Assembly (NCBI GenBank): GCA_947034885.2
Contig: OX344749.2
Span: forward strand, 25,435,501 to 25,499,500
Source: Thuidium tamariscinum
Lineage: Eukaryota > Streptophyta > Bryopsida > Hypnales > Thuidiaceae
Direction: 5' to 3'
DNA: 64,000 nt
In this document: one piece after another, positions 201-56,117 of the stretch
Position numbering within the stretch: position 1 is the first letter of the stretch
Layout: every line of letters starts with the position of its first letter
Program-made: the position numbers and the translations under genes
Notes under the pieces: generated by a model
The model's database searches: none
What the model was told of the DNA's origin: nothing
What the model saw: the letters and a program-made list of their open reading frames with translations, nothing else

Positions 201-1098
201 TTAACCCCTAAAGGACCATTGTCACCTTGGGGGACAATTTGGAGTTCAGTCAGGTTCTGTAGACCTCAATTTTTAATGAATCTTTTTGAAACTTTCTCAT
301 AAGATTGGAAAACTTATTAGCTTCATGGGAATGTAATTTTTATTTCAATTGGTGACCGGGAGCAAAAGTTATACCACAAAAAGCATGGATTTTAGTTCAA
401 CGGGCAGAATTTCTTTTGCAAAAAGTCAAATATATATATATTTGCCTACATGTGAAGCTTTGATTCACTCTATTTGGACTTATAATGAGAAAGTTATGGA
501 CAATCTTGTTTTTCGGGCAATCTAAACAATTTCTTGAAAAAACAACTTATAGGATTCATTTTTGAATGCAATTTTCACAATTTTAAAAAAAATTGTTGGA
601 AAAGGTTATGTTTACTTTCTAGAACAATCTCACCATTGCAATTATTGTATTTCAATCCCATCTTAGAGTTATTAACCATTTAGTTTTTCTTTCAATCTTG
701 GACCTACATCTACTTAACAATTTTTTAAAGGATGAAAATCAAGTGTTTTTTGTGTGAAATTTTTTTCCTAGACTCTCAACTCAACTTCTTAACACAAAAA
801 ATTATAAATTCAAATTCTATAGTGCAATTTTTTTTATAAATGCCAATCAAAGTCATCTAAAATTGCAAACCACAGTTCAAAAAAACTTGTATTTCCAACT
901 TTGAATGCTCATATCTTCCAATTTGTACGGTCAAACTTCATGAAATTCTCACTACTTGATCTCAATCAAGTTAAGTAGAAGATCCTACAGTTAGATTCTT
1001 AAAAAATTATTATTTTTGTTTTCTTGGGTAAAATGCAATAGAAATGGCAGTTTTGAGAGGTTTTTGACAGAAAAAAGGCCTTGGTCCTTTAGGGTTAA
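201..1098. mobile_element. TTAA-flanked MITE, family A copy 1 (piggyBac-like)
   Basis: The element begins TTAACCCCTAAAGGACC and ends GGTCCTTTAGGGTTAA, giving about 17 bp of terminal inverted repeat with the TTAA target at each end. A second copy at 40651-41575 matches it along its whole length with few differences and the same orientation. At about 900 bp it has no meaningful ORF, so it is non-autonomous. TTAA targets with inverted repeats starting CCC are known from the piggyBac superfamily; the assignment is inferred from ends alone. Confidence 0.85.
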
Positions 1099-1286
1099 TT
1101 TTGCTCATTTTCTACTTCATTTTTTCATACCCTTTGTATAAATTTTTTTTAAATCTTCCAAAAATGAACATTTGGCTAAAAACCCTAAATCTGTTCTAAG
1201 ATCACTGGTCCCCGCCTATGTTGGAATCTTCCAAATGCAGATAACGTCCCTTCAATGAGAGCAGCCCCACAGGCACACAGCGTGCG

Positions 1287-1558
1287 TTAAATCCTGTAAT
1301 CGAAACTAACATGGCGCAAATGAATTTACCCCAGGGTAAACACTGAAATTTTCTATTTTTTTTTTTTTTTTTTAATTTTCAAATTCTGAATTTGGATTTG
1401 GATTCAGAGACCCTAAATTAACTAGGAAGGACCTTGACGCAACCAAAAAAACCAACAAAACATAAACCCCCAAACCCTTATCAACCCCTGGTAAAACAAG
1501 TTTCACCTGCGGGGGCTTGATTTACCTGCGCCACGTCAGGTTCGCTAACAGGATTTAA
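1287..1558. mobile_element. TAAATCC-ended MITE, family L copy 1
   Basis: Ends are TTAAATCCTGT and ACAGGATTTAA. The interior (an ACCCCAGGGTAAA block, a long T tract, then AACCCCTGGTAAAAC) is shared with copies at 6768-7018 and 20058-20308. The family is about 250-270 bp with no ORF. The superfamily is not determined; only the 20058 copy shows a clean flanking duplication. Confidence 0.65.
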
Positions 1559-1947
1559 CGTCTTGCCCTCTCAGTCGGTTTTTTCGTGCACACCACCCTG
1601 AATTGGGGTTGGGACGGACTTTGCATGTTCATGGACTCCAGCTCCAGCCAACGAGAGCACTTGGACATGATTGAGGAGCGCCAGCCAACTCTCCCTCCCA
1701 GGCGATCCCAACAGTAACTTACTGGCATGTGCGTGGGAATGGAGCAAGAATATTCGCACTACGCCACCATTTGAGGATTTTTTTTTTTTTTTTTTTAAAT
1801 TATTTTATTACACAAATGAAACGGACGTTTGATGAGTATATGCAAAATCATTTTTTAAAAAGTAATAATCAGCCCTACAGGTCGTTTTTTACTAAGGTAT
1901 GTATAAGATAGAAGCACCCAAATGTAGTAGGATTTGTTTACCAAGAC

Positions 1948-2215
1948 TTAAGGTGGGTACACCCAAAAGTGGTATTGTGCCTAGTTACTATTATAAAGTT
2001 GGTCAAGTTTTCATATAGTCTTGATGGCAAGTGAAAGCACATTTCGATGCACCAATGAATATTGCATTTGGATATAATATGCAAGAGCTATTAATGGTCA
2101 AAGTCTGTTTCTAGAAGCACCATCTACAGCATGCGTACACAATTGCTTTTGAAAATGTACATCCAATGTAGATGGCACTTTAAGGTCAACTGCACTTTTG
2201 GGTGTACGCAGCTTA
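1948..2215. mobile_element. GGTACACCC-ended MITE, family K copy 1
   Basis: Inverted ends TTAAGGTGGGTACACCC and GGGTGTACGCAGCTTA bracket 268 bp. A second copy at 38961-39239 shares the interior, including CAAAGTNTGTTTCT and GAAAGCACCATCTACAG. Non-coding. A TTA/TAA target, as in PIF/Harbinger elements, is possible but not proven. Confidence 0.7.
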
Positions 2216-4020
2216 GAAGAAGCCCCAAAGTAAAGTAGAAGTGGATCCAAAGTTGATAAGTGGGGTATAGGAAGTTGTCACGATGATGAAGGTGGGATTT
2301 ATGTTGTTCAATTTCCTACAAGGGATTCAAGCTCAAGTTCTGTTAGTATTGTACTAGGGCATTTCAAGGACCGCTTGTAGGTCAATCTATTGTTTATAGT
2401 AGGTGCATCTATGCAGTTGATTTTTACAAATTTGTATTGTACTCATGTAATAAAAATAAAAATTCTAGACCAATTTTGTTGGTTTTCTAAACCATTTTCT
2501 ATGAAGCACACATCATTAATCAATAGCTACCCTCAAGATATCCAAATCTTGAACAAGTGTTGCTTTTAGGTATGTCTACATTATTCAAAATGGCACCCTA
2601 TAATTGATGCCCTATAACACCTTCTTCACATTCAAATGTGGTTAAAATTGTAATTGGAGTAAATAGAGGAGTCATTTGCATAGGACGTGACATACCATTT
2701 AGTAGCCTTCACTAATACTACATTTGAATCTTCTCCATGAAGTTCATCCAACAATACTTACTACTATTGACTAATGTGCTTTTATTGATTGCTATTGATC
2801 AATGTATTATGTACTAATTGCTTTGTTTATTGCTATTTTATTGTTTCTTTATTACAAATATTTTTACAAACAATTTTTGTAAGTCTTTCACCATTCTCAT
2901 GCTTCTTGCTACATGGCCCCCCCAAGCTTACCAATAGGGGATGAAATGATGTGGAATATTTGACATCATTATGTTGGGAAAAGGCCAACACAACTAACTA
3001 CTATTGAAAGTTATTAAAAGGGCTAGTGAATTTGGTTGAATAGTCATTGTTTTATAACTTCAAAGAATAATTTATGCACTTTAGACATAGAGACAAAAGG
3101 TTCCTTTATTATTCTATCATTTGAAAAAGATGCTATATACTCATAGTCCACCATTGCAACCATCCCTTTTTTTACTTTTTGAAAAAGTGCCAAGATGGCA
3201 ATCACTTCAAATTTGATGAAGCATTGTATTTCTACATTCATCCGCCTTTTGGACTTAAAAACACTTTTCCATCATATTCATACACTTCTTCATCCAAATT
3301 TTAAAGAGAATTGGAAAATTTATAGCAAAAAAAAATTACTTTTATCTGGCAAAAAAAAGACATTTATTTTGAAATGGTGTGATTTGACCCCATGGTGCCA
3401 AAAAAAGGAATGTTTGTAACCAAGTAGGGACTAAGGAGTCTAAGAAATCATCATAGATTTCAAAAGGACAAAAAAAGTCCTTTGTAGGGAGAATAATGGG
3501 AAGTTATATGTTTTTGCTTTGACCACCTATAATGTGTGTATTTTCATTGAAAAGTGAGTTGGATAAAATACTTGCAAAAATCCCTACTCAATTGTACATA
3601 CCTTTAGTCCTACATCACACTTGAAATTAAGCAAAAATATTATTTGTTAGACTTAGAACTTCATAGAGCAAAGACCAAAATCCTAATTCTAGATCCCAAG
3701 TTTTTTCATGTATTATATATATATTTGGGGCACTGGCATTTAAAGGTTCAACTAGTAGATTTTGACAATATAATATTTTTAGACACATTGCTTAAAATGG
3801 AGATCTGCATTTTGGAGGCCCTTATTTTTATAAAAGGTGTAGGTGAGGAATATCTATCATGTGATCTAAATTTCATTACATTTGAATATACAAGTCAAGA
3901 TTTATAGCCTCCTAACAACCTAGATGACCACTATTTTGTGCATATAACAATTCTCAATAGAAGAGAAAGACAACAATTGGGTCAAATAATTGTTATATAG
4001 ACTCAAATTTTTGGTGTATA
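2216..4020. other. AT-rich intergenic DNA, no feature recognised
   Basis: I see no credible exon, RNA gene or paired terminal repeat. The short open frames at 3044-3241, 3195-3419 and 3644-3907 have AT-driven composition and no recognisable motifs. Confidence 0.5.
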
Positions 4021-4243
4021 TACTACAAGAGAAAGGGGTGTTTCAAGTGAGATTTTAATTATAGTCCTAGACATAAGATTATAAGTAATGATTTTTATGG
4101 CAATTTTTAGCAAAAATTTACAACAAATACATACATTTTTTTGTAAATTTTTGCTAAAAATCACTGTAAAGGTCATTACTTATAATCTTATGCTTAGGAC
4201 TATAATTAAAATCTCACTTGAAACACCCCTTTCTTTTGTAGTG
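4021..4243. mobile_element. CACTA-like hairpin MITE
   Basis: The left end TACTACAAGAGAAAGGGG and the right end CCCCTTTCTTTTGTAGTG are inverted copies. The pairing runs inward for about 100 bp on each side, so nearly the whole 223 bp folds back on itself. The right end reads CACTACAAAAG on the minus strand, as in CACTA (EnSpm-type) elements; the left C has become T. A 3-bp target duplication is not preserved. Confidence 0.65.
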
Positions 4244-7297: not shown

Positions 7298-8014
7298 TTA
7301 ACCCTGAAACGCCGGGCCTATGACCACTGGTTTCAGGCTGCACTCTCTGTCACTCAGTTTGTTACCATTTTGTAATCAGATGTATATGGAAATTTTTATT
7401 TTTATTTTTCAAAGATGAAACTGCATGTCCTCTGTACTTCACAGAAATTTCAGATTTTCTTGAAGAAAATTGTATTTTCCGAATTTTTTTGAAGAGAAAC
7501 TGAAGAAAAAATCATAGAAAATAGAAAATATTCTCAAAAAATCTGAAAATTTCACCATGTGTGAAAAATACAGTGGAAATCATCATGGTGTAAATCAATT
7601 TGCCGTATACATCTATAATTAGAATGCAGTGGACATTAAAAATACAGCCAAAGTTCAAACTGCAATAAAATATTCAGTTTTACGAATTTTTCCAAATTTT
7701 CAATTGGAGAAGAAACTAGAGTATAGGACCTCCATTTCATTAGTTGGGCTCAAATTGAAAAAATGTCGTTTTCAAGGAGAAATTTCAGATTTACTCAATT
7801 TCTCAAAATACACTAAAATGACAAATTTTGCCATTCGTTTTTCTTAATTACTTCTCATCTACATGAAAAGAAACATCAATTACATTAGAAATTCACTTGG
7901 ACACTCTTTGTAACTCAACATGAAAGGTCATTGAAAAAAAATGGATGAAAAAACTACTGTTCAGGCCTTCTAGTGGTGTGGAGAAGTCATTTGCTGCCGG
8001 CGCTTAGGGGTTAA
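7298..8014. mobile_element. TTAA-flanked MITE, family E (piggyBac-like)
   Basis: Left end TTAACCCTGAAACGCCGGGC; right end GCCGGCGCTTAGGGGTTAA. Both TTAA targets are intact. The 717-bp interior is AT-rich with short palindromic stretches (GAAAATTCTC-type) and no gene. Only one copy is seen here. Confidence 0.75.
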
Positions 8015-8517: not shown

Positions 8518-8714
8518 TCAATGAATGACAAAGAATCTTTTCTTGTAGGACAGAAGTGTAACTAATCACCTCGGTATTAGAGGTAGAAAGGGGAAATGTT
8601 CTATAGTCCTTTGACTTCCAATAAATATATTTGCCACTTTTTCAAAGTAGATGATGTCACACATTATCAAAATGCATGATTTCCACGGCCACTAATCCAT
8701 CGTTCTAGGGTTAA
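8518..8714 (-). mobile_element. TTAA-type MITE, family B copy (inverted)
   Basis: Read on the minus strand it starts TTAACCCTAGAACGATGG and continues TTAGTGGCCGTGGAAATCAT, matching family B at 13385. The other end is worn and placed only roughly. Confidence 0.65.
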
Positions 8715-12163: not shown

Positions 12164-13102
12164 TTAATCGATAAACTAAGGTTTTTGACCATGTTTCCAC
12201 CAAAATCACTCCAAAATTGTAATTTCCAATACAAGTGCAGTTTTTTTGAATAAAAATATTTTTTGGCATATTTAACCATAGGATCTTGTAGTTAGGTGGT
12301 TTGAAAATATATGGAAAAAATTTCAAAATTTTTCATTGTGTAGATTGCAAGATATTATCATTTGAAGTAGCAAAAATCCTTTTTTTATCCTTGCAAAAAC
12401 TTGGGTAGCTACTCTTCACAAGGTCACATTTGTATAAAAAATACTCAAAATGATGGTTACTCTTTGAATTCAATTTATAATTCAAGTCTTCCATATGCTC
12501 AAAAAATTTCAATCATTTCGAATTGTACAACATATAGGAAAAAAATAGTAAGTAGGAAGAAGTAGAAAATGCTTGAAGATAATAAATTGTAAACAATTTA
12601 TTTATAAACATGAAAAATGCCAATCTCAATGGTTAAAATATTTTAATAAACAACATTCACCCAATTTTATAATTTTTTTTCAAAAATATTGAAAATTGAA
12701 TTAAATAAAGAATTTCAAACTTTTTTTTTATATAGAATAAGATTCTATAACTATCCGCAAACTACCCCAAATTAAAATTCCTCGTATTTTTTTATTCATA
12801 TATCAAAATGAAATAATTCAAAGCTTTACATGTAGATGAAAATATAATAAACCAATTTCAATTTTTTTTAAAGTTTTTTTTGCTGCCCAGGTTGCTTGAT
12901 GTTCAAAGGAAACAACATATCATGTCATAAATTTTTAACAATTTAGTCAAAAGTTATGAAAATTGTTGGCCCTTAAAGACACTCTTTGGACACATGTTGT
13001 GTGAAAATTTTATAGAAAAATAAATAAAAACTCCATTTTGTAGTAAACTAACTGAAATCACTATGTTGCCAAAAAAACATAGTTCAGGGCTTTAGGGGTT
13101 AA
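12164..13102. mobile_element. TTAA-flanked MITE, family C copy 1
   Basis: The right end is CTTTAGGGGTTAA, preceded by TTGCCAAAAAAAC; the left end is worn but aligns from TTAATCG into TTTTTGACCATGTTTCCACC. The interior blocks (GTGTAGATTGCAAGATATT; TTGTACAACATATAGG; GACACTCTTTGGACACATG) recur in the copies at 14434, 21391/24338 and 53724. Its length of 939 bp closely matches the 937 bp of the 53724 copy. Confidence 0.75.
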
Positions 13103-13384: not shown

Positions 13385-13614
13385 TTAACCCTTGAAGGAC
13401 GGACTAGTGGCCATGGAAACCATGCATTTTGATATCGTGTGACATCCCCTACTTTGAAAAAGCCAAATATATGCATTGGAAGTCAAAATACTATAGAAGA
13501 TCTTTCCTTTCCACCCCAACTACCGAGGATGAAAAGTTGCATTTCTATCTTAAAAGGAAAGATTATTTGTCATTTAGGAGGCGCCAAACATCCACGGCGT
13601 CGTTCAAGGCTTAA
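13385..13614 (+). mobile_element. TTAA-flanked MITE, family B copy 1
   Basis: It begins TTAACCCTTGAAGGACGG and ends CGTCGTTCAAGGCTTAA, an imperfect inverted repeat of about 16 bp with TTAA at both ends. It is 230 bp long. Other copies lie at 14206, 31178, 8518 (inverted) and 54765 (inverted). Shared interior blocks include ATGGAAACCATGCATTTTGA and TTCCACCCC. Confidence 0.8.
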
Positions 13615-13653
13615 AAAAATAAATTACAAGCATTATATTTGTTGGATGTTGGC

Positions 13654-14205: not shown

Positions 14206-14437
14206 TTCATCCTTGAAGGATGGATTGGTGGCCATGGAAATCATGCCTATTTGATACCGTGTGACATCATCTACTTTGAATAAGCCAAATATATTCAGTT
14301 GGAAGTCAAAGTATTGGACAATATCTGCCCCTTTTCACCCCTAATATCGAGGATGAAAAGTTGCACTTATGTCCTACAAGGGAAGATTCTTGTCATTCAA
14401 AGGACACCAAACATCCGCAGCGGTGTACAAGTGTTAA
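14206..14437 (+). mobile_element. TTAA-type MITE, family B copy 2
   Basis: It matches the 13385 copy throughout (CCTTGAAGGATGGATTGGTG; CGAGGATGAAAAGTTGCA). Its left TTAA has decayed to TCAT-like sequence. The right TTAA (14434-14437) is also the first base block of the next element, so the two lie end to end on one TTAA. Confidence 0.75.
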
Positions 14438-15468
14438 ACCTTAAGGGTTGTTGACTATGTTTTCACCAAAACCACCCCAAAAGTGTTATTACTAAGACAA
14501 CTACCAAATTTTAGGAAAAAAAGATTTTTGAAATGATGTAACTATAGGATCTTTTAGTGCACTAGTTTGAGAAGATGTAGAAAAAATTTCAGAAATTTTT
14601 GTTGTGTAGATTACTATTTTATTTTTTTCATTTCTCAAGAAGTGCTAAAGTGGTAATATTTCATTTTATTGTAGAGCTCCAAATCTAAAAATTCATCCAT
14701 ATATTGGATTGAAAAATATCATATTAGCACATAATACATATCTATCATTCTACTTCCATCCATTATTTGGGGATTTCATCCAATATTTTTTAAAAATTGA
14801 AGTTTATTGGTGATTTCTTCCAAAGATTTACTATTTTTTTCCTATAGGCTTGGTGCCTGGCAAAAAAATTTGGTGCAATTTTGCACCAAATTGCCAAAAA
14901 AAACACTGGTGTAGATTGCAAGATATTGGTGGTTGAAGTTACAAAAATCATTTTTTACCACTGTAAAAATCTGGATAGTTGCACTTTAGAAGGCCACATT
15001 TGTATGAAAAATATCCAAAATGGTTGTAACTCTTGGGATTCATTCATTTTTTTATTCAAGTTGTCTACATTCTTGAGATTTTCAAATCATCTAGACATTC
15101 GATAACTTCCTACAAACTAAAACTCTGATAACTTACATCTCATTAATTAAAATTAAAATTATTCAAAGATTTCCATGTATACATAAATTTAAATAACCAA
15201 TTTCAAGTTTTCATTTTTATTTCAAGTGATTTTTGAAGAAGATTTTTTAGCTGCCCGAGCTACCCATTGAGCAATGAAAACTGCATATCATACATTAACT
15301 TTTGAACCATGTAGTCAAAAGTTATGGAAATTATTGGCCTTAAAGATACACCCTGGGAATATGCTGTGTGAATATTTTATAGAAAAAAAGTAAAATATCC
15401 ATTCATAGATACTTGCCCAAAATTGCTACATTGCCAAAAAAACCGCACTTTGGTACTTTAGGGGTTAA
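14434..15468. mobile_element. TTAA-flanked MITE, family C copy 2 (with insertion)
   Basis: It begins TTAAACCTTAAGGGTTG and ends ACTTTAGGGGTTAA. It is homologous to the 12164 and 53724 copies but longer because a separate 296-bp repeat sits at 14613-14908. The left TTAA is shared with the neighbouring family B element. Confidence 0.8.
14613..14908. mobile_element. Interspersed repeat with 9-bp target duplication, copy 1
   Basis: GTGTAGATT occurs at 14604-14612 and again at 14909-14917. Uninterrupted family C copies have this segment once, so the 296 bp between is an insertion. It begins with a T-rich tract and ends after a perfect hairpin, TTGGTGCAATTTTGCACCAA. A second copy at 40346-40637 has its own 9-bp duplication. 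The class is unresolved: 9 bp suits Mutator-like elements, but the ends are not clear inverted repeats. Confidence 0.75.
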
Positions 15469-16387: not shown

Positions 16388-17324
16388 TTAACCCCTAAAT
16401 GCCCAAGCCTTTTCAAGTGTATTTTGACTATGAAAAAAGCACACTGGCTTGTAGTCATCTCTAATGAAGCAAGTTGATTTTTTTTTCAAAATCTACCCAT
16501 ACAAATGTTTAAAGGGTTTGTTTATTAAAAAGTAAACAAATTTTGAGTGCTAAATTGTATAGGAGTTGTAAGATTATAATGAGAGAAGGGTGCATTTTCT
16601 ATAATTAGTATATTGCCTTTTCCCACAATGTTTCCCAAATTTGCATATTATTTTTTGGGGGGATTGGAGGTGATATGAACACCTACATAGAGTTTAAGCA
16701 CACTAAAATGCACTTCTAAAAAACTTGATTTCAGATGAAAAGCTACTAAACTCATTACACAATCCACCTTGCAATTGTTGAAATGCAATTTTTTTTATAA
16801 GTAGAAATTGCAAATAGCTCCAAACCAATAGTTATATGTTAAAATTTTCAATGGTGAATATCATGAAAACACTTTACACTTTCCATTGGAACCATTCTCA
16901 AAGCAAATGGATATGTACAATTTCTTAGATCTCAAATCAAGTGAAATTGCTCAATGTTAGGAAATGAAGAACAATTGACAAGCTTTATTCTTCACTTTTG
17001 GCACATGTATGCCTTTGAAGACCTCTCAATAATCAAATATGTACTTTTTTTTAGTGAAAAATGAAAGTTTTCAATAGTTAACCCTTAGAACTGCCCGAAA
17101 AAAATTTAAAAATGGTCAAAGGAATTTAACTGCCCGCTCAAAAATGGGCTTGAAATTTCAGATCCACCATATATGGTTGACTGGGCAGTTAGGGGTTAAG
17201 CATCAATACAGTTAGATTATGTAAAAGAAAAAAATTTACTTCATCGTAGTTAACTATAAGCCAAATGAATGTTGTTTTTCATAATCAAAATACACTTAGA
17301 AAGGCTTAGACATTTAGGGGTTCA
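16388..17324. mobile_element. TTAA-type MITE, family F copy 1, with about 50-bp inverted ends
   Basis: The left end TTAACCCCTAAATGCCCAAG pairs with the right end CTTAGACATTTAGGGGTTCA. The match continues inward through AAGTGTATTTTGAYTATGAA to about 50 bp, the longest terminal repeat of the TTAA families here. The right target has changed from TTAA to TTCA. A second small element is nested at 17078-17199. Confidence 0.8.
17078..17199. mobile_element. 122-bp TTAA-flanked MITE nested in family F
   Basis: It starts TTAACCCTTAGAACTGCCCG and ends GGGCAGTTAGGGGTTAA, with TTAA on both sides. It lies near the right end of the family F element, so it entered after that element. The CCCTTAGAA opening resembles the CCCTAGAAA end of the original piggyBac element. 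Confidence 0.8.
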
Positions 17325-21180: not shown

Positions 21181-21678
21181 TAAACTAAAATGAGGTATGC
21201 TTGATTGAGATTGCATTGAAATTGGGTGATAATTATGCAAGATAAAAAGTTCAAATTTTTTAAGTACTATGCAAAAAAAATTGGATTATGTCAAATTGAA
21301 AAGTTGTAAAGGAGTTGCACCCCATTGTATAAGGTTAAGAAGAGTGAAGAGGCATATTGACACCCAAAGTTGAAAATATAGTGTACCCCTGACTCTTATC
21401 CGTGGTGGTTTTGACACACACAATTGTAAGATCTTGTAGTACATTGGTTTGAAAAGACATAGAATTTTTTTAATGTATTTCTATGGTGTAGATTACAAGA
21501 TATTAGAATTTGAATTGACTGAATTTTTTTTTTTGGCCCTATAAAAAATCAAGCAACTACACTTCACAATCTCACATATTTATAAAAAAATGTCCAAAAT
21601 GGTCATGCTTCTTTCAATTCATTCTTCAAGTCAAGTTAGCTACATGTTTAAAAAATTTCTAATCATTTTGAACTGTAC

Positions 21679-23250: not shown

Positions 23251-23259
23251 ATACAACAT

Positions 23260-23749
23260 ACAATGATGCTAGTGTGTGAGCATGAACATACAAGCATGTG
23301 AGCTTCCAATATGTATATAAGTAGATATACTACCACCTTTTTCTTTTTTTTCTTTTTTTTTGAAACACATAGACGATTTCCATTGCAAGGGGAAAAGGTA
23401 CAATGAACCAAGGGCAAGGCCCCGACAGAAAACCCAAATTTTTTGTTTTTTGTTTAACAAACCAGAACAACGGCACTAACATCCCAACAACCAAAACTAA
23501 AGTACAACAGAACAGAAGAGTGAGCGCCGAAGCAGGAAACCATAACAACAACGGTCGCAGAGCACCGAGGCCCAATATACTACCACCTTTGAAGATGTTT
23601 ATAGTAAAAATATCTATAATATACGTACCTATAGTATAAATATACTCTTATCATAGAAGGTTTCTATAGTATAAGCACCTATATTATAGGTGCATAATCT
23701 TTGAGGCTCATAAGCTCACACTTCTATACTCACATACTAGCAACCCTTG
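23260..23749. mobile_element. hAT-like MITE, family D copy 2, 8-bp duplication
   Basis: TACAACAT occurs at 23252-23259 and 23750-23757, immediately outside the element; 8 bp is the hallmark of hAT transposition. The uninterrupted family C sequence has TACAACAT once, which confirms the insertion. The ends are CAATGATGCTAGTGTGTGAG and CTCACATACTAGCAACCCTTG. Without the LINE fragment inside, it is about 240 bp, like the other copies. Confidence 0.85.
23341..23574 (-). mobile_element. 5'-truncated LINE-like or SINE tail with 16-bp duplication
   Basis: A 16-bp direct repeat, ATATACTACCACCTTT, brackets this 234-bp insert (23325-23340 and 23575-23590). On the minus strand the insert is GC-richer than its host and ends in an A-rich tail (a CAAAAAAAAAGAAAAAAAAG-like run). 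A long target duplication with a tail is typical of target-primed reverse transcription. The minus-strand frame at 23330-23575 is open but has no reverse-transcriptase motif, so it is a 3' end or a SINE. Confidence 0.8.
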
Positions 23750-39900: not shown

Positions 39901-42900
39901 TTTGCTTATAGCTTTGTACAGATATATCATTTACCAGAATTTAATGAATTTGGTCATTAAGGAAGGTTGTCTCTTCTAAATTCAAGTGTTACATTTGATA
40001 AATGAAAAGTTGATTGGATGAAACAAGGCCTTGAAGCCCTCTGTTCATCGTCCATAATATGGACGTTGGAGTGCTTCAGGGTTAAAGAAGGAAGGAGTTG
40101 CTTTGATCAATGTTGATTAGGGTTTAGATTAGAATGAATTCTTTGTGCTATTCTTTCATTGTTAGAGTTATGAGGCATAGATTTTGAGTGATTAGGTCTT
40201 ATGCTTTTGATTTTTGTAGAGGTGAGTTTTGCCTCGATTGAGCATTTTGAATTTGAATTGATAAGACTATTTGGGATTTTGTGGACAATTAGATAATGAT
40301 GATGAGGGAGCTGGTGTTGTTTCTAGAGACATTGATGGTGTATATAAGTTTAGTTTTTTTTCATTTCTTGCCAAAGTGGCGATATTTCATTTTGCTAGAA
40401 AGCTCCAAAATCTCAACATTCATCCATATATTGGAGAGAAAATATCATATTAGCACATAATACATATCTATTGTTCTATTTTCATCCATTATTTGGCAAT
40501 TTTATCCACAATTTAAATTTTTTTTGAAGTTTATTGGCAATTTCATCTAAAATTTTATTGTTTTTTTTCCTATAGGCTTGGTACCAGGTCAAAAAAATTG
40601 GTGCAATTTTGCACCAAATTGCAAAAAAACCCACCTTGGTGTATATTGTCTTAACCCCTAGAGGACCACTGTCCCCTTAGGGGACAATTTGGAGTTTGGG
40701 CAAGTTCCGTAGACCTCAGTTTTCAATGAATCTTTTTGAAACTTTCTCATAAGATAGGAAAACTGATTAGCTTCATGGGAATGTAATTTTTATTTCAATT
40801 GGTGACCGGGAGCAAAAGTTATACCACAAAAAGCACGGATTTTAGTTTAGTGGGCAGAATTTTTTTTTGCAAAAAGTCAAAAAAGTCAAAAATAAATAAA
40901 TTATTATTATTATTATTTTTGCCTGCATATGAAGCTTTGATTCACTCTATTGGACTTATAATGAGAAAGTTATGGACAATCTTGTTTTTCGGGTAATCTA
41001 AACAATTTCTTGAAAAAATAACTTATAGGATTCATTTTTTAATGCAATTTTCACAATTTTTCAAAACAAATTGTTGGACAAGGTTATGTTTACTTGCTAG
41101 AACAATCTCACCATTGGAATTATTGTATTTCAATCCCATCTTAGAGTTATTAACAATTTAGTTTTTCTTTCAATCTTGGACCTACATGTACATAACAATT
41201 TTTTAAAGAATGAAAATCAAGTGTTTTTGTGTGAAATTTTTTTCCTAGATTCTCAACTCAATTTATTAACACAAAAATTATAAATGCAAAGTTCATAGTG
41301 CAATTTTGTTTTACAAATGCCAGTCAAAGTCATCTAAAATTGCAAATCACAGTTTAAAAAAACTTGTATTTCCAACTTTGAATGCTCATATCTTCCAATT
41401 TGTACGGTCAAATTTCATGAAATTTTTACCACTTGATTTCAATCAAGTTAAGTACAAGACCCTACGTTTAGATTCTTAAAAAATTATTATTTTTGTTTTC
41501 TTGGGTGAATGCAACAAAAATGGCAGTTTTGAGAGGTTTTTGACAGAAAAAAGGCCTTGGTCCTTTAGGGGTTAATAAAGTATTGCGTGATTTCCTTTTC
41601 TTTTGAATCATTTTCATTGAAGATATTTGTTTTTTAACACTCTATTTTTAGACATTTAAACTGACTTTAGAATCTGTAGGTGAGCAGAGTTTTTTCTTTA
41701 GGTAGTAGTAGACTTACTTGGTCATAAATAGGTTTTGAATTTAGTGTAGAATGTTGTTTGTAGGAAGTAATGTAAAAGCACTATCAAATTGAAGGTAGCC
41801 ATAGTCACACTAGAACAATGCATAGCACATGTAGCTAGTGCCACAGGCTAGGGGCTTTGTTCAAACGTCAAATTACATGGCATGAAATGTACTTCATATT
41901 TTTATTAATGTCACTATTCAAGCTGATACGCTTATGGTTTGAATTTATTACTATATAATTTGGATTTCATGTGATGGCAAGATCTTATTCATCATTTGGT
42001 GATGATGAGATGTTTTGAGTTAAATTCTTGATGGAGCAATTAATTCATATTAATTTACATTGGATCTTTTGTAGCTCATAATGAACAAGAGGTTTCTAAG
42101 TGGGCATATTTTGAGAAAAACAAAGTTGGTATTGAAGTTGCAATAGCATGTTGTAGGGATGGGTTTAAGGTAGCAACACCCATAACCGTCAAAATAAGCA
42201 ATTCAGTAGAGTTGAAGGTCTCTTTTTCTAAAAAAGAAATATTTTTACAGTATTAGCAATTGAAAATCATGAATTAAAAAAATATAGAATTTTTGGAGAA
42301 GGCATCTTATTTCTATGAATTTTCAAAGTAGAAGTGACTAGGGCACCCTATACCGCACTCTAATAAATCTACCTTGATTCTTACAAGAAAATCTAAAAAA
42401 TTCAAAGTTTACCAATTAAAATTAAGAATGGGTGATAGTTTCAAGGTACTCTTGAAGACAATTTAAGAGCACTTGTGAGCCCTCGAGATGGCACTTAGAG
42501 CTCTGGGTCCATTTTTTGCGATTAAATTGCGAAATCTAGCTAAAAATACAAGAAAAATACATAAAAAAGAGAATTGAAGGAGTTTTGGTGGCAGTCTATA
42601 CCAAAATGGTGAAAACCTGCTTAGAAGGTGGAAAATTCCTAATTCTAGGAATTTCTATCATTTTGAGTCTCAAAAGTACGTTTGAATGAAGATTTAGTAG
42701 TTCCTAGAGAAATGAGGAATGAGAGTTAGTTAGTCCTAGTCTCTGTTTGTGCAAAATCAACCTTTTGAGGATGCACATGATATACTGACTAAGCCGAAAG
42801 AGTCTACTACAAGCCTAGAAGATCTACCAAGGCCTACATTCAATTTTAGAATAAATGGGATTTAAAGGTAAAACAATTACATGTGACTTGGAGAATTGGA

Positions 42901-45900
42901 ATTTCACAAGATGGAAGATGGAAGATTGGGGATTGAAGACTACGGAAAGGTGTTCCCAGGGTAGGAACATGCCAAAAGCGAAGAAGAATTAGACAATTGT
43001 CCAAGATTTCCGGGTATCGGGAATTAAATTGTCCAATCAGGCAAAATAATTTCAAATTACTAAAAATAGAATAGTGCAAGGTTGTGTGGAACTTACACTA
43101 AGAATCTAGGAGTGCCCTAGATTTTATCCAAATTATTTCGTATTTTTTTGAAATTCCATGTTGACTCCATGGGAAGTCAACCGCACATAGAAATGTTCGT
43201 AAATTCCTAGAAATTATGTATGACTCGGTAAAATCTCATTAAAAATTAGGATAGGATTTTATGTGATGAATAAGCGCTTGGTCAAGTTTGAAGACATTCT
43301 GACATTCCCAACTACCAGAACCGGCATTGACATCGAATTTCAATGAAATTTACAATTTGGCAGCAAGTTGACCGACGTATCAAGAGCAAATGATGTCCGA
43401 TTGTCGCAAATAAGGAGTTGTTCCTTGCTCTCACATACATTCCTAATAATCCTAGCCTGACAGATTCATCAAAATGCACAAATCCTAAAAGTTAGATTAT
43501 TGACTTTTAATTGGAGTTACCGTAATTCCAATTCGGGTGCGCAAACAGCCTAAGAGTGAGGGATAAGGGATCCTTTAGGCTAATTGGGGTCTTCTGAAGA
43601 CAATGGCGCAAATGGTTTTTCGTTTCAATTTGTTCCCTAAAAGATAGAGAGGGTCAGCTCTTAGTTTGACTTTTTAATCGTTAATTGCGGTTAATTAAAA
43701 GTGATTTTGGAAATATCTCTTGGAAAATCAAAGATTGAGTTTAGTCAAGATCTCTTCTTTGCGTAAAAAGCCATCTTTGGGCTAAAGAAAAACAATTTTC
43801 AAAATGACTTTTGGTTAATTTGCAAAATATCTACGTAAATTAGGGTTAATTCCAAAATATCTTGGGTTAAGATCTTGGATTTGATTTGGCCAAGATTTCA
43901 CTAGCTAAATGGGGATGTTTTTATAAATTTCCACCATTAAAAAATTATTATTTTGAAATTACATTAGAGTAGTTTAGGATGGAAAGTAACAAAGTGTTTT
44001 CACTGACAATTTACCAGGAGGGGCCCAACCATGGGTATATAAGGGCCCCCCTCGAGGTTGCTAGTACCCTTGTTTCTTGCACCGACACTTTGTTCTTCTT
44101 CCATGCTACCAACATGGTCGGAGCACTACTTGGACCAAAAATCTTGGCCAAGTCTTGTTTTGTGTTTTGATATTGGAATTTTGAAGGCTTAGGGCCCCTT
44201 CAATCGATTCTAGGAACTTTTTATTGTGAAAAGGCCAAGTCTTGACTATTTCCGTGGAAATTTCAAGCATTGAGTGCCAAAGTTCGGTTCAAACATTGTC
44301 ATGTGTACCTCCTTTGGTGGCAAAATCTTGAAATACTAAGAAGTTTTGAGAATTTAAAGTGAAAGTTCGGTTCAACACTGTCATGCGTACCTCTTTTTGC
44401 GATTAAAATTCTTAAAATATTATCAGAGAAATCTTTATACGGCGAAGCTCTAGTCTCCTATTGATTGGAAGGAAAAGGGTAGAAATCTAAAGCACCATAA
44501 AAACTCCAAATTCATGATTAGGAGCTAAGCAAATTTGGGGAAAGACTAGTGTGATACTTCTAGCTAATCACCCTTTACATCCCATGATCTCAAAAAACCC
44601 GGGATTTACGGAAGAGATGGCTTAGTAATTGTCTTCATTCTACAACATCCCACCCTTATAGTACTCGTTTATTATTTATTCCGCTCAATTATGCTCATGA
44701 GATAGAAATTAGTGCAATTAGAGTTTGAAATGAGTTCAATTAGAGGTTCCCTGTAGTTAGTACTAAGTTCAAAAATCCACCAAAAACCTTACTTGTTGAC
44801 CAAAATTTAGATTAGAATATTGAGTTCAAAAGAAAAAGAGACTCAATCCAAGACCGAACTAGCCAGTCGACCAGCCCAGCCAGACCGAACTGGCAGTCGA
44901 CCAACATACAGATCAAGTAAGGCCCCGACACCCCACCTGCCAATTGTGCCGCGCCACGTGGCAGACGCTGACGCGTCGGGGGGAAGGGTCCGACCAACCC
45001 GAGGCCGCCACGTGGTCAGGGTCGGGCGGGGTACCAACACCGTGACTGAGACCAACGTTGTACTGGGAGTGGGGAGTCGGGAGCGGCACTGGGATAGTCG
45101 AGAGTCCAGGACCAAACCGAACTCGGTGAGCTCACGAATCACTTGATCAAAATCTCAAAAACTTGATTTTGGAAAAAATCTCTAGATTGGCAGTTGGAGC
45201 CACAACCCTTCCGTCTTTTTTTTAAATTTTCTCTAAAAATCTAATTTTTGGAATCTCAACATTCTTTACTAAAACTTCACTTAAACTCCTAATGCCATAG
45301 CCATATCCCTCTCAAAGTTGTTGCAAAACACTCCGAAACAAGAATGAAATAGAAGGAGGGAGGGATTAGGAAGATTAAGGCGAAGGAATCCTAACAAGGG
45401 AAGCAATTTCCATTAAAAAATTCATTTTTGTGGAATAACACTATTGAACTTGATTCTTATTCCTCAGGGGTTGACCCTTGGGAATAAAATACCAATTTCT
45501 TTAGAATATTACTATTGAGATTATTCTCGTTCTTTAGGAATGTTCTACATTCTTTGGTAGTTAGTCATTAATTAGATTCTTAGAAGGTTTGGATTTTGTT
45601 GGTTTTGTTTTATTAGGCCTAATAAGCCAAAAAACAAAAAACAAATTGACAACCAATTTCTTTAAAAATTAACGCAAATTCAAAAATTAATTAGATTTGA
45701 TGATAATTTTTGATTTAAAATATTTTAATAAGACAAAAGGGAAAAGACAAATTGACAACTAATTTTTTCAAGAATTAACAAGAATTCAAAATTAATTAGA
45801 TTTGAAAAGATTTGATGATAATTTTTTATTTAAAATATTTTAATAAGACAAAAGGGAAAAGACAAATTGACAACTAATTTCTTCAAGAATTAACAAGAAT

Positions 45901-48900
45901 TCAAAATTAATTAGATTTAAAAAGATTTGATGATAATTTCTTATTCAAAATAATTAATTTCATTTTGAAATTCAAATATTAAACAAAAGAACAAAATTAA
46001 CAATAACAAAACACTAACCATTAAATTCCCATTGAACTTTAGAATAGGTAGGCTAGATTAATTTGTAGTATTTTTCCATTACCGTGAAATTAGGAATAAA
46101 AGGAAAATACACAATTAATTTAGAACTATATTACCATTAGTTTTTTAGCCAGGTTGAAGTTTATTTACCAATGACGTGAAAATTATCATGGATTAGATGG
46201 AGAGCCGTGATGATTTCAATGGCGAGGTTGTGGGAGAGTACCTTCATATGATGATGTTCAATGACGGGACTATGGAGATCTACGCGGAAGAATTAAACCA
46301 ATCCCATTTGATTTTTATTCTCATTGTTTTATTGCTAAGTTTCTTCTTACCAAACGTGTGGAATTAGAAATCGATAGAATTTTAACTACTAAATTAGGAT
46401 AGGATAGAATAGAATAGCCAAAATTGTAGACTCAAATTAGACTAAAAACACTTAAAAGACGTGACTAAAAGAGTTCATTGCTTGGAAGGCTCTCTTTGAA
46501 CACTCAATTAGAGAGAAAACTCAATTAAACACAAGACCCATGTGATAAACTTCTAGCTCGAGGGTGGAGTTAGAAGCGCTCACAGCACTCTACTTGCCAG
46601 TTATGGGTGCAGTGACAGTTATGGATGCTGCTACCTTATAGATGTGAGTTTTATCAAGTTTGTTCATGATCCTAGTCAATGAGTTATTTATTAGTGCAAA
46701 TGTTATCATCTAAACATTCAATTTTTGTTGATGTCTCATTAAGGTTTGGTCTATGGATCACGCTTTAAGTGCTTTGCATCCCTTGTTGCAATTTTGACAT
46801 GGACGAGGAAGGCAAGTATTATATGGGGAGGTGGTCTTATAGATGGATGTAAGGTTGATTGGGTTCAACATTTTGTTTGGTGTATTGAATTTGAAGAACA
46901 AAAAATTATTACAAAATCTATGTATTTGCATGTATGATTGTTGTGTCTCATTTACAATTGTATCTTACTTTGAAGATTTTTTTATGCACACTCTATAGTT
47001 TTAAGAAAAAAAATTCTATAGAGTATTGGTCCAAATATCTTTTTGTTGTAAGGTGAATCTATTGAACTAGAAATTTATTGTAGTCATTGTTTCTTTCTAA
47101 ACCCTAGCAGTTTATTCTTTTCAAAATGTAGTGTACAACTATAGTTAGGCATGAGTACTTTTCAAATCTTTCAAGGTATATGAATGATCAACAAAGCATT
47201 TGCTTATCTTGTGCAGTCTTGGAGCAATTTTTTGTCCAAGTATTGAAGTTCAAGAGTTGGGTCCTCATATTGTTGAAGACATTAGTTCAATTGCCTTTGG
47301 ATTTTTTTGATAGGGTTGTCACTTGTTTGGAATTGAAAAAGAATAATTCTTGAATCAAATACTTGGGCAATGATTAGTGAGGAATTTATATAGGGCACAT
47401 GTTTGAAAATAAAACCAATGAGATACTCAACTTAATTGCTTAGATTGTGAAGGTTATGCAAAGTGACTCCATTCTAGGGATCAATGCAAGTATTACCTAG
47501 AGATGCACAAGAATGGTGACTTAAAGCTTAATAGTCTAATAGACATTGTTTTCTATTTGGATATACATTTTTTGGATGTAATTATGATGACTCAGCTAGT
47601 GAAACTCTTAGCTTACATTGACATTGATACCTTAGAAGGTTGTAAACTCCATAACAATTGAGAAGTTGTCTTCACAAAAATGCTTCCAAATGAATGTAAA
47701 GTTGAGATGAAATTGTAAAGTTTGATTACCAATAGTTTGCTACTATTGAAAACTAATTCTATAGCATAAGAGGATTTCTAGTTGGTTTACAAGACTGTGA
47801 GTTTCCAAATGTTGGGAACGCATTGGGAACGCTAGGAACGCGATGCTGATGTGGTCGAGCAAGTGCCATGTCAGAAAATAATAATAATTTATTAATTTTA
47901 ATTAATTATTAAATAATTTTTTTGCTTTTTAATACATTCTGAAGTTTTTTGGAAGTTTTTTTTCAAAATTCAAAAATTTAGACCAGCAAGGGGTTGGTCT
48001 ACAATAGTGGGAACAGTTTTAGTGAACACCCCTAAAATGGTCTTTTGGGGGCCCAAAAATCCTCTTATGGTCACTTGTTTGATTTTTTTGTAATTTGGAG
48101 CATCTTCAATGCAACTAGCAACTTGATTTTGGAGAAAAGTAATTTTTGATCATTAGGAAGTTAGAAACTTACTTGAGGGCAATAAGAATTGTCCATGTGT
48201 TTAAAGAAAACTAAAAAAACTAGGTGGGGATCAAATTTGGCTTAAAGTAAGTCATTTGAGTATAATAATGCCTTATGTCATCTTGTGAGTGGAGCAAGGT
48301 GACATTGACCTTTAAATATCTAATGTAGAAATTTTATTTGGATATTTCTAATGTACTTCTCCAAATATAGTATGAAACTTTCTTTTTAAATGGTTTGCCT
48401 TGTTGGAGAAGCTAAACTCCTAAAAACAATTTTTACTAAAGTTTTGTAGGAAGGAAAATGGAATTGACATCCAACATAAGTTGCTTCATATATTTTAGAC
48501 CTTCACATGGAATAAGACAAATTTTGAAGTTGAATGCAATGGTTACTAAAAGTGACTACCTCCTAAAATGTAAGAGTACATTGTTGGTACATTGAAGAAA
48601 AGAAAATGAACCTTTGAGTCATGATTGCTTATAGAACATGGGCGCTTTCAAATCAAACTTCTATAGACAAACCCAAAAAAGCTCTGATTTCTATTGCAAT
48701 CCATCTTCTTCTTTTCAATACAATCCTTGCATCTTTACATTCTTGAGAATTTGAATACTTCTACAACATGATTATAGGACTAATGTGGGACCATTTATAT
48801 ACAGTAGTTCCATTTGCATTCTAATAGGAAGTCTAAATGTTAACATCCACTAACCACATGTTATGTATCTCTTTTTTCTCAAAAAGATTTTGATCAAAGA

Positions 48901-52572: not shown

Positions 52573-52801
52573 CAATTGTTGTTATGTGAACTTAAAATTG
52601 TAAGCCTATGAACCTAGAAGACTATACACCTATGATATAAGTGTCTATATTATAGTAACCTTCTATGATAATTGTGCATATATGCTATAAATACCTATAT
52701 TATAGGTGTTATAAACACCTTCAATGGTTTCATAGTATCTATTTATGTATATGCTCAAGGCTCACATACTCATACTTTCATGCTCACATACTAGTACCAT
52801 T
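52573..52801. mobile_element. hAT-like MITE, family D copy 5
   Basis: It starts CAATTGTTGTTATGTGAAC and ends GCTCACATACTAGTACCATT. It is inverted relative to the 11113 copy in its interior (CACCTATGATATAAGTGTC; AATACCTATATTATAGGTG). It is 229 bp. Confidence 0.65.
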
Positions 52802-53723: not shown

Positions 53724-54660
53724 TTAACCCCTTGAGATCCTTGACTATATTTATTCCAAAAACAATAAAAAAAACTTGTCATTTCTAGTAGCAATACCAA
53801 TTTTTTTTCTTAAAATTTTTTTTTGAGATTTATAACCATAGAATCTTGTAGTAAATTGTTTTGAAAATATGTGCAAAAAATTTCAGAGTTTTTCACCCTG
53901 TAGATTCCAAGATATTTGCATTTGAATGCTCAAATTTTTTTTTTTTTCACCTTGCAGAAAACAAGGTAACTGCACTTCAAAAGGCAAAAATCATATGAAA
54001 AATATTCTAGAATGATTATGCCTCTTTGAATTCATTCTTGAAGCCAAGTAGGGTGCTTTCCTAAAAAGTTTCAAATTGTTTAGAATTGTACAACAGGTAG
54101 GAAAAAAATATTAAGTAAAAAGAAGTAGCAAATGATTCAAAATACAAAATTGTTAAGAATTTATTTATGAAATTGAAAAATGCCAATCCCAATGGTTGCA
54201 ATGTTGTAATAAACAATCTACATCCTAAGATTTTATTTTTTTCAAAAAATATTGAAAATTGAGTAAAATAAAAGACTCAAAAGTTTATTTTACAGTAGAG
54301 AATCCATAATTGTCTGCAAACAAAAAAACTCATAACTTTTGACTCATTGATCAAAATGGAATGATTCAAAGCTTTCCCTGCATACCTAAATGAAGAAAAT
54401 TGATTTCAGATTTTTGTTTTTGAAAAAAGTGATTTTTTCGAATCTACCCAAACTACATAGTTACGAAAAAAATTAATATATTAGGCCATAATTTTTGTTT
54501 CATATTTCCAAATGTCTTAATTTTTAGTACACATGAAAGATATTCCTCATCCCCACCTTCTATTAAAACTTGGGCCCAAAATATAGAATTCTCCAATCAC
54601 ATGTACTTGCTCAAAATTGCTATATTGCCAAATTTGGCATGCTGGTCCTTTAGGGGTTAA
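53724..54660. mobile_element. TTAA-flanked MITE, family C copy 4
   Basis: It begins TTAACCCCTTGAGATCC and ends GGTCCTTTAGGGGTTAA, with TTAA at both ends. At 937 bp it is the cleanest full-length family C copy and serves as reference for the interrupted ones at 14434 and 21391. Confidence 0.85.
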
Positions 54661-54764
54661 TCTCTTCTAGTACATAGAGATGATAAATGATATCATTTCA
54701 AGGGATGATTTAAACATAAGATTTTCAAACTCTTGTGACCCATAAATGATGTCGAGGCTATTTT

Positions 54765-54985
54765 TTGGTCAATGAATGAGCCCGTGAATGAGAGAACATC
54801 TTGCTATGTAGGATAGAAATGCAAGTATTCATCCTCAAAATTAGGGGTGGAAAGGGAACATCTTCTCCATAACTATGACTTCCAATACACACTTTTGGAT
54901 TTTTTCAAACCAATGATTCCCATGGTTTCAAAAATGATGATTTCCAATGTGACCCTTGTCTCATTTAAAGATTAATCATTAAAAA
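54765..54985 (-). mobile_element. TTAA-type MITE, family B copy (inverted, worn)
   Basis: On the minus strand it reads TTGGAAGTCATAGTTATGGA, then CCTTTCCACCCCTAATTTTG and GCATTTCTATCCTACA, matching family B. Neither terminus is intact. Confidence 0.55.
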
Positions 54986-55336
54986 TTTTGAAATCTCTAC
55001 TTCACCATCTCTCCAATACATAGTCAAGAGTAGTGTGCCATGTGCCATTGTCACTCAAAATCAAAGTAATTTTAAAAAAAAAAAATTTCAATCCATAAAA
55101 ACTTTGAAATTCAATAACTTCCTCATCATAAGTCAAATGCCACAAAACAAAGCCCCTATTTTTTTGACGATACCAAATATTCAATTGGGGATGCACAATT
55201 CAAGGGATCTCAACTTGACAAACAAATAGTGTGTCTTAAGGTATAGATATTTTCTCACTTTTATTATCACAAAATTGAAATGATAGCAGGGTTTGTATTA
55301 ATTCTAAATAAAAATAAGTTGAATTAGTATACACCC

Positions 55337-55362
55337 ATATATATATATATATATATATATAT
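55337..55362. repeat. (AT)n microsatellite
   Basis: About thirteen AT units in a row. Confidence 0.9.
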
Positions 55363-55505
55363 TACATGTGATAAGTATAGAAATGTTACACCATTCAAAT
55401 TACATGAGAGAGAAATTTGAATGAAATCTTGATAGTAAGATTCTTTGACTTTGATATATAATACAAATGAAAATTATACACGTTCACTATTTAATTATGG
55501 AGTAT

Positions 55506-56117
55506 TTAATCCCTAAATGCTTCAGGCATCTAAATCTAGTGTTTGCAAAACTTTGAAGTTAAATAAAATCTAACCAAGTTATTCACAATAATTTATATTT
55601 TTAGAAAGTTATTTTTGAAGTCTAGTTTCAATGTCAAAAATCTAAATTGGAAAATGAATGATAGTGATTTTTCTATCCAAGAGTTTGTGCAAAGGTACCC
55701 ATTGCAACCTTGACTTTCCATAGTGTTGAGAGCTCTTGAAAATGAGCCTTGAATACACTAAATCTTAGTAGAAAAATCACATTCAAAATTCATTTACAAA
55801 AATTGATTGGAATTATGCATATTAGGCCCTTTAGCCTCATATTTTTTGATCACCAACTTTTCAAATTTGACTTGTGAAAAGAAGATAGAAATTTGACTTC
55901 ATATCACTTTTGCAATCTTAACACCCTCATGGTCAAACATTATGATCTTTCACTCCATAAGTGACATTGTTATGTTTTCTTTTCCTATGCAATCTCTAAG
56001 TCTAGTTTGAATCTAAATTCAAAAAAATTGATAAAACTTATCAAAATGTTGGCATTTTATACAATTTAAAGCAAAATCCAAGAAGCTCAAAACAGGCCTT
56101 GGGCATTTAGGGGTTAA
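55506..56117. mobile_element. TTAA-flanked MITE, family F copy 2
   Basis: The left end TTAATCCCTAAATGCTTCAG and the right end CTTGGGCATTTAGGGGTTAA are inverted repeats with TTAA on both sides. The 612-bp interior is shared, inverted, with 34310-34969. Its right end lies about 780 bp from the stop codon of the rhomboid gene. Confidence 0.8.

Follow-up and report, generated by a model that had tools for sequence, protein, structure and literature searches.

The window, a 64,000-nucleotide stretch of the Thuidium tamariscinum genome analysed as a whole, is rich in repeats that open with TTAACCC and close with GGGTTAA, and the question is what kind of transposon these ends belong to. PiggyBac is one candidate, a superfamily whose evolution is documented mostly in animals with limited fungal and plant studies, according to an excerpt of PMC12732532. 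On the basis of sequence comparison, we found that the repeats of the window are very probably (probability of about 0.96) non-autonomous, MITE-type members of several piggyBac lineages of this moss genome, related to elements of roughly 5-8 kb that encode a DDE_Tnp_1_7 transposase.

TTAACCC is found 27 times on the two strands of the window compared to 10.40 expected (s.d. 2.69, maximum 18; 100 dinucleotide shuffles), and the longer tip TTAACCCCTAAANG is found five times in the window and in none of 100 such shuffles. Because the two tips of one element are alike over only about 15 bases, repeat boundaries replaced the pairing of terminal inverted repeats; a simple score over 16 bases, applied to every pair of TTAA sites, had returned 12 pairs, just two of them starting with CC, with 0-2 pairs in each of ten Markov controls. 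Searches with five moss families gave 1,595-6,434 loci each, which are unscored first-look candidates and not copy counts. TTAA is present on both sides of 38 out of 40 fetched MITE copies, taken chiefly from the best-scoring rows (F1 10/10, F3 10/10, F7 14/14, D 3/4 and F8 1/2). The families cover 12,023 of the 64,000 bases (about 19%), a figure obtained with the window copies among the queries, and a reversed-sequence control covers none. The TTAACCC ends are therefore real, being enriched over shuffles and bounding genome-wide repeats.

The original prediction listed ten termini, all said to open with TTAACCC, as the edges of seven or more families with differing interiors. Eight of the ten do start with TTAACCC, the exceptions being 12164 (TTAATCG) and 55506 (TTAATCC). 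Several groups indeed exist, but repeat comparison sorts the ten termini into six, A to F, and some of the interiors are related.

The F1 element of group A at 201-1098 (898 bp, forward strand) has TTAA at both ends, is 95.0% identical to the family consensus and 90% identical over its full length to the 925-bp copy at 40651-41575 (forward strand), so that 201 and 40651 represent one family. Used as a query, this second copy is matched over positions 1-925 by all 40 scored copies (itself included; 6,434 first-look candidates), along with two partial neighbours, and the ten fetched copies have differing flanks outside their TTAA. Of 385 exact F1 tips across the genome, 373 directly follow TTAA and 12 do not; the reversed tip pattern has no match. 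Among the F2-type members of the group, the old copy at 12164-13102 (forward strand) is 68% identical to the 937-bp one at 53724-54660 (forward strand), and both are distantly similar (57-60%) to the 201/40651 family in reverse orientation. Sequence comparison adds several decayed copies, among them an old F2-type copy at 14434-15468 (forward strand), a group A remnant at 31773-32474 with no strand assigned, and an old split copy at 21409-24338 (forward strand) in which F2 positions 98-369 lie at 21409-21679 and positions 363-937 at 23747-24338, interrupted by an unrelated insert of about 2.07 kb (about 21680-23746).

Group B is a non-autonomous element, F3, at 7298-8014 (forward strand) with 39 non-self scored copies. 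The left part of a group C element lies at 13385-13620 (forward strand) and has relatives at 8524-8714, 14206-14438, 31180-31412 and 54787-54975. The group D element is 812 bp long (16388-17199, forward strand): 37 of its 39 non-self scored copies stop at query positions 811-826, about 17199 in the window, and the other two at 793 and 783. The listed terminus 17078 is thus internal to this family and is not a family terminus of its own. Group E (F7) is a 229-bp element at 39857-40085 (forward strand), and group F (F8) a 612-bp element at 55506-56117 (forward strand) with a second, older copy at 34309-34968 on the reverse strand, 68% identical to the first.

A search of the genome with the DDE_Tnp_1_7 profile, proposed with the original prediction, returned 116 scored matches (657 first-look), all above the Pfam cut-off. 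We fetched 20 loci of 10 kb, chosen mostly among the best-scoring matches, which biases the sample toward intact copies. They represent 11 distinct elements, and in each of the 20 the transposase lies within one or more TTAACCC..GGGTTAA pairs. Borders are confirmed by multiple copies for four of the 11 elements, and for the other seven the ends were picked by motif and position alone among several candidate pairs. Alignment to piggyBat and piggyBac places Asp at each of the four catalytic positions in all 11, and the five transposases scanned with Pfam match DDE_Tnp_1_7 at E values of 1.6e-76 to 1.2e-80. At the C-terminus, the sequence pattern has five invariant columns of Cys and one of His across the 11 aligned elements, with a further Cys missing in element L024, which points to the C-terminal Cys-rich domain of the piggyBac superfamily; excerpts of PMC11707139 describe this domain as absent from PGBD1 and PGBD5 and thus not universal. 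All 22 autonomous tips start with CCC, of which eight follow CCYT strictly, 11 read CCCCT and three CCCA; the piggyBac tip rule is CCYT, with CCCAT and CACTA reported too, in the part of PMC10813416 consulted. Pfam returned nothing at or above cut-off for a suspected N-terminal Tudor-like domain, either in the five scanned transposases or in a scan of four peptides, one of them with about two letters off, and a search of viral contigs with two peptide patterns gave 37 pattern stretches, none of them a relative.

Whether this system is still mobile bears on a first alternative, in which piggyBac has died out in this genome, leaving the families as fossils, and near-identical copies of one element, PB1, come from segmental duplication or gene conversion. 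The window copies are diverged, by 4-7% from the family consensus for F1, F3 and F7, about 10% from relatives for D, 18-25% for F8 and 30-40% for F2, and many transposase frames are interrupted by stops. Thus, none of the window MITE copies need be a recent mover, and the wide spread of ages suggests repeated waves and not the one burst originally proposed. PB1, however, is present in 11 copies, recognised by the transposase frame together with the exact 5′ tip, and all share a stop-free open frame of 1,023 codons. Six copies were read over their whole length; each measures exactly 5,096 bp, with 0-3 differences across 15 comparisons, and all six carry TTAA at both ends while their outside sequences are all different. 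We accordingly regard extinction as doubtful; the PB1 copies point to at least one lineage that jumped very recently and may still be active.

A second alternative is that one active transposase moves all families, the end rule being common because a single enzyme recognises CCC-tips. The CCC shared by all autonomous tips fits this idea, and cross-mobilisation of piggyBac MITEs on a CC[C/T]T motif, together with interior sequence, has been suggested in coral (excerpt of PMC2872659). Past CCC, however, the tips are lineage-specific. The ends of F1 have 143 bp (69%) and 303 bp (67%) in common with autonomous L024 (group A matches to transposase-bearing elements at E 2e-17 and 3e-37), and in group B the first 20 nt of the left tip at 7298 are the same as the PB1 3′ tip and a fetched F3 copy has 45 bp in common with L010 and L017 (E 5e-8). 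For groups A and B, this argues convincingly for end sequence common to transposase-bearing elements. The corresponding matches are weak for group C (tip 81% over 32 bp to the L016 3′ end, E 0.005), group E (40 bp, 75%, to the L026 5′ end, E 0.005) and group F (114 bp of one end, 65%, to the L024 5′ end, E 0.002), which weakly suggests shared ends and leaves the single enzyme some room, and group D matches none of the autonomous elements by BLAST, having only the tip in common. Furthermore, amino-acid identity among the 11 transposases is 30-68%. A single enzyme therefore appears quite improbable: the original prediction was right that transposases exist elsewhere in the genome, but they form several lineages and not the single active source it implied.

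The original prediction offered as a test that uninterrupted target sites should have a single TTAA. Autonomous L016 (7,936 bp) is inserted in a repeat, and all 40 scored copies of this repeat (3,364 first-look) continue through the joined site. Six of six fetched empty sites have one TTAR with no gap nearby, one of them TTAA and five TTAG, so that TTAA as the L016 target is deduced from one copy together with the joined flanks. A MITE within L050 gives a concordant picture, the sole fetched uninterrupted copy having one TTAA. Empty sites thus retain one TTAA-equivalent, consistent with a TTAA target duplicated on insertion as in the piggyBac superfamily. PIF/Harbinger elements duplicate TTA or TAA, and the repeats might accordingly be MITEs of another TTAA- or TTA-using superfamily with the transposases as bystanders; given the TTAA ahead of 373 of 385 exact F1 tips and the end stretches that group A and B MITEs share with transposase-bearing elements, this is very improbable. 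The remaining explanations, namely chance, an AT-rich or telomere-like motif (CCCTAAA is similar to the plant telomere unit) or animal contamination, are negligible given tip counts far above dinucleotide shuffles, repeats and transposases spread over ten large contigs, and the insertion of L016 into a repeat that belongs to this genome, where a moss-like LEAFY gene is also found. The assignment to piggyBac therefore stands, through the transposases bounded by these ends, the end sharing of groups A and B and the empty sites.

A palindrome 24-25 bp inside the 5′ tip has arms matching 5/5 in nine of the 11 elements and 4/5 in one, and falls short in L027, at 3/5, compared to the 3′ tip, where 5/5 is found in none of the 11 and 4/5 in one. 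The background is 17 of 1,110 for 5/5 and 168 of 1,110 for at least 4/5. The score is confined to arm positions 3-7, counted from the centre, and was picked after a first score including the AT-rich centre had given no clear signal and the sequences had been viewed, so that this background serves for orientation and does not amount to a blind test; furthermore, the palindromes of L010, L017, L019 and L025, four of the eleven, are one common sequence. In the window, the palindrome is present at the left end of 40651-41575 (5/5), at the right end of 53724-54660 and, with both arms matching fully, 25 bp from the right tip of 39857-40085, and it was not seen at 4/5 or better at the ends of the copies at 7298, 12164, 14435, 34309 and 55506. 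These observations point to a palindrome inside one tip, as in piggyBac and piggyBat. By homology to the insect and bat proteins, the core of a transposase dimer would recognise the CCC-type tip and the C-terminal cysteine-rich domain the palindrome that lies some 25 bp in from one of the tips. The element would be cut out at TTAA and placed into another TTAA, duplicating that site, and short elements retaining the tips of a lineage may be carried in trans by the transposase of that lineage.

Taken together, the bounded transposases, the near-identical PB1 copies, the end sharing, the empty sites and the palindrome indicate a diverse and recently mobile plant piggyBac population. With about 19% of the window, piggyBac, although rarely mentioned for land plants, can form a visible share of plant DNA. 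PiggyBac is in wide use as a transposon tool, and the moss lineages and the 11 near-identical PB1 copies represent a candidate native plant system, and plant piggyBac biology would become testable in haploid, transformable mosses. We consider it an even bet that large piggyBac elements underwent a radiation of their own in mosses, where no fewer than three deep sets of transposases coexist, one lineage can still jump and the PB1 clade has an extra N-terminal region without Pfam match. In that case, native plant piggyBac would offer a new tool for gene delivery and be a major shaper of this moss genome.

The original prediction described piggyBac as seldom reported from land plants. Plant studies are indeed limited, but the fern Ceratopteris, a land plant like the moss, has a PiggyBac row of 1,230 copies and 122,417 bases in a repeat annotation (excerpt of PMC6890710), and PiggyBac is listed among the superfamilies present in all groups studied, land plants included (excerpt of PMC4438587). 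In a moss genome paper that matched "piggyBac" by text, the matching word is "piggybacking". The coral CMITEs, from an animal host, resemble the moss MITEs in their TTAA duplications, CC[C/T]T-like tips, adjacent insertions and tips matching resident piggyBac (excerpt of PMC2872659). PiggyBac of Trichoplusia ni (PDB 6x67/6x68) shares with the moss elements the Asp positions of the DDE core, the TTAA target, the CCC tip, the C-terminal Cys-rich domain and internal palindromes, but it has the palindrome at both ends (excerpt of PMC11707139), compared to one tip only in the moss elements as scored. It is also smaller, at about 2,472 bp (excerpt of PMC10813416) with a 594-residue chain, compared to 5,096 bp and 1,023 codons for PB1. 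Intact moss elements appear larger than animal ones more generally: they span 4,954-7,936 bp by the ends used, with open frames of 774-1,214 codons in the five long elements scanned (328-693, for example, in decayed loci), and fall outside the beetle range of 2,074-3,465 bp and 500-725 amino acids (excerpt of PMC12732532), an animal-sized range and not a superfamily rule. PiggyBat of Myotis lucifugus (PDB 9c0f) is the best solved-structure match to PB1 (E 3.4e-27) and, with piggyBac 6x67 (1.1e-22), the only one at E ≤0.01. Its host and protein size differ from those of PB1, and its left end carries motif and palindrome three times, whereas the moss elements were scored at the tip-proximal position only; piggyBat likewise has ends that are not symmetric, a palindrome lying close to the left tip (both from excerpts of PMC11707139), and the moss 5′-tip palindrome, about 25 bp in, resembles the published piggyBac/piggyBat docking site.

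We found that the assembly holding the window (363 Mb, 19 contigs) contains piggyBac transposases: a genome search with the Pfam profile DDE_Tnp_1_7 returned 116 scored matches, all above cut-off, out of 657 first-look candidates, on ten large contigs. Twenty of the 116, mainly the best-ranked ones, were fetched with 10 kb apiece; similarity sorts them into 11 distinct elements. At every one of the 20 loci, the transposase is bracketed by at least one TTAACCC..GGGTTAA pair. For multi-copy elements (PB1, L027/L028, L016/L023 and L020-L022, where L numbers denote fetched loci), the similarity ends at, or a few bases from, TTAA. The border is set by six copies for the autonomous element PB1 (5,096 bp), by multiple copies for L027/L028 (5,094 bp), and by L022 for L020-L022, as L020 and L021 have flanks in common via an inverted duplication (G000:C8:23929484-23946654) within which these two 5.6-kb piggyBac copies, oppositely oriented, are separated by about 7 kb. 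The ends of the other seven distinct elements come from motif and position, with several loci offering more than one possible pair.

Compared with solved structures at E values up to 0.01, PB1 matches only piggyBat (9c0f, 3.4e-27) and piggyBac (6x67, 1.1e-22). Aligned across the 11 elements, which have 30-68% amino-acid identity, four catalytic Asp, five C-terminal Cys and one His are invariant, and one further C-terminal Cys is absent from L024. Read from the identity table and not from a tree, the transposases split visibly into a PB1-like set (L010, L015, L017, L019 and L025, with L016 at about 49%), L024 with L026, and L018 with L021 and L027. The PB1 frame has its first Met at residue 15. 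N-terminal to the catalytic domain, PB1 residues 116-456 (within L010:4128-7196, minus strand) have no Pfam match; relatives upstream of the core in four of the ten other elements (28-33% identity, E 6e-31 to 3e-16) point to a putative coding N-terminal region proper to the PB1 clade. The five long transposase frames scanned have 774-1,214 codons, and the shorter frames at other transposase loci (328-693 codons) are probably decayed.

Counted on both strands, the window has 27 copies of TTAACCC, whereas 100 dinucleotide shuffles averaged 10.40 (sd 2.69) and never attained 27; the longer tip TTAACCCCTAAANG is present five times, against zero in the shuffle control. The original prediction of seven or more families, all opening TTAACCC, stands in part: eight of the ten named termini open in this way and two do not, and BLAST within the window plus one genome search place the ten in six groups. 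Group A has termini at 201, 12164, 40651 and 53724 together with more decayed copies, group B at 7298, group C at 13385, group D at 16388, group E at 39857, and group F at 55506 with a second copy at 34309-34968; position 17078, named as a terminus, is internal to the group D element. Within group A, a younger family, F1, stands beside F2, which is older and more diverse, and the two match each other at 57-60% in reverse orientation; F3, F7 and F8 are the families of groups B, E and F. All families cover 12,023 of the 64,000 window bases, query window copies counted in; when reversed as a control, these sequences cover no window base. Six back-to-back joins GGGTTAACCC, where a single TTAA serves two elements or one element plus a CCC-flank, were found in 345 kb made up of fetched sequence and the window, a partly overlapping base biased towards insertions.

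An old group A element is split by a 2.07-kb insert, flanked on both sides by TGTACA, that carries a palindrome of about 1.6 kb (21662-23267; longest arms 308 nt, 97%; repeats every 176-177 bp). The window also holds a hairpin at 4022-4242 (106-nt arms, 91% complementary, 9 nt between), suggested to be another MITE type or a small-RNA precursor, a tandem repeat of about 115 bp at 45587-45922 whose final two units are 97% alike, and a 247-codon open frame at 59434-60177 (minus strand) that has no Pfam match, contains two GL(S/N)ALD(A/S)YF-type repeats and is probably part of a host gene.

TTAA stands on both sides of every fetched copy of F1 (10/10), F3 (10/10) and F7 (14/14), of three of four group D copies and of one of two F8 copies; genome-wide, it directly precedes 373 of 385 exact F1 tips. 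When the flanks of 39 insertions were joined and compared with all sequence fetched by then, nine gave junction-spanning matches and 30 gave none. Five matches look clear (L034, L041, L050, L052 and L016) and two weak (L035 and L045); those of the window insertions at 40651 and 55506 are to their own window locus. A second scan with further fetched copies added one weak case, L057. Two of these cases were taken further. The L016 target is a repeat: each of its 40 scored copies, out of 3,364 first-look candidates, crosses the join at 93-96%, and the six fetched each contain one TTAR (TTAA in one, TTAG in five) with no gap near the join. At L050, one copy matches nearly the entire joined query (90%) and contains one TTAA when fetched; many others align just with a stretch crossing the join, about positions 44-170, at 78-82%. 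With transposases in the genome and such single-site targets, the predicted piggyBac class is borne out and withstands both refuting conditions set for it.

To relate the families to autonomous elements, window-copy tips were compared with 22 autonomous tips, and families with the 11 elements by BLAST. F1 matches L024 over 143 bp at one end (69%, E 2e-17) and 303 bp at the other (67%, E 3e-37), which suggests that it arose by deletion from an L024-like element. The fetched F3 copy L046 matches L017 over 45 bp (87%, E 5e-8, palindrome within) and 32 bp (88%), and PB1 similarly; of these two stretches, the window F3 copy retains the 32-bp one. Weak matches run from the tip inwards between group C and L016 (32 bp, E 0.005), F7 and L026 (40 bp, E 0.005), and F8 and L024 (114 bp, 65%, E 0.002). 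For group D, BLAST finds no match in any of the 11 elements; at its left tip, 18 of 24 positions are identical to one L024 tip. With 1,110 TTAA-side sequences from the window as background, the elements' own ends included, no other equals the agreement of the 7298 left tip and two others equal that of the 55506 right tip; past the first eight bases, both ends of 12164 and the left ends at 14435, 17078, 39857 and 53724 cannot be told apart from this background.

Identity to consensus is 97.5-99.0% for fetched F1 copies (95.0 and 92.9% in the window), 96.1-99.3% for F3 (96.0%) and 94.3-99.1% for F7 (94.8%); F8 relatives stand at 75-82%, and F2-type window copies at about 58-71% to each other. 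Given these differing divergences, the window holds layers of different age. In place of the proposed burst from an active transposase source, the data show several transposase lineages and several waves. Six full PB1 copies differ by 0-3 per 5,096 bases (15 pairwise comparisons). Frame and tip give 11 genome copies: the 1,023-codon frame is without stop in eleven transposase matches, and the exact 32-base 5′ tip occurs 12 times, adjoining those 11 copies and L017. Taking a substitution rate near 1e-8 per site and year, these differences correspond to an age of no more than a few tens of thousands of years. Very recent movement is evidenced only for PB1-like elements, outside the window; transposase activity today is putative.

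The genome contains LEAFY; against 4bhk ('FLORICAULA/LEAFY HOMOLOG 1'), presumably the Physcomitrium protein, 107 residues of the LEAFY DNA-binding domain reach 238 bits, versus 173 for the next chain; the plant is therefore taken as a moss. SAM_LFY, the LEAFY SAM domain, has five weaker genome matches besides LEAFY, concerning L030, L031 and L032; at L031 (G000:C1:35710485 region), a frame resembling a BED-type zinc finger by eye, in the same orientation, hints at a possible transposase-derived protein with a LEAFY-like domain. Among the open-access titles and abstract openings listed, we recognised none on piggyBac elements in moss, and on this open-access scope we claim no priority. A December 2025 paper notes that piggyBac turns up now and then in plant genomes, with red algae as the example, and gives intact beetle elements as 2,074-3,465 bp with transposases of 500-725 residues (PMC12732532).

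Published work describes how the Cys-rich domains of the piggyBac and piggyBat transposase dimer bind a palindrome just within the left tip (PMC11707139). At the transposase-upstream end, 9 of the 11 moss elements have a palindrome with arms of five bases whose centre lies 25 bases in (24 in L024), counted from the tip, while L021 has four of five arm pairs and L027 three; at the 3′ end, five pairs are found in none of the 11 and four in one (L019). In the 1,110-sequence background, 17 have five pairs and 168 at least four. The MITEs carry it at 40651 left and at the left of 10/10 fetched copies (F1), 39857 right (F7), 53724 right (F2), 17199 right with four of five pairs (D) and, again with four, at the right of 8/10 fetched F3 copies and at both ends of copy 201; the ends of window copies 7298, 12164, 14435, 34309 and 55506 have no palindrome of four or more. 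The geometry of the tip palindrome and the Cys-rich pattern support the same docking mode for the moss elements as for piggyBac and piggyBat, with their transposases putatively binding the palindrome.
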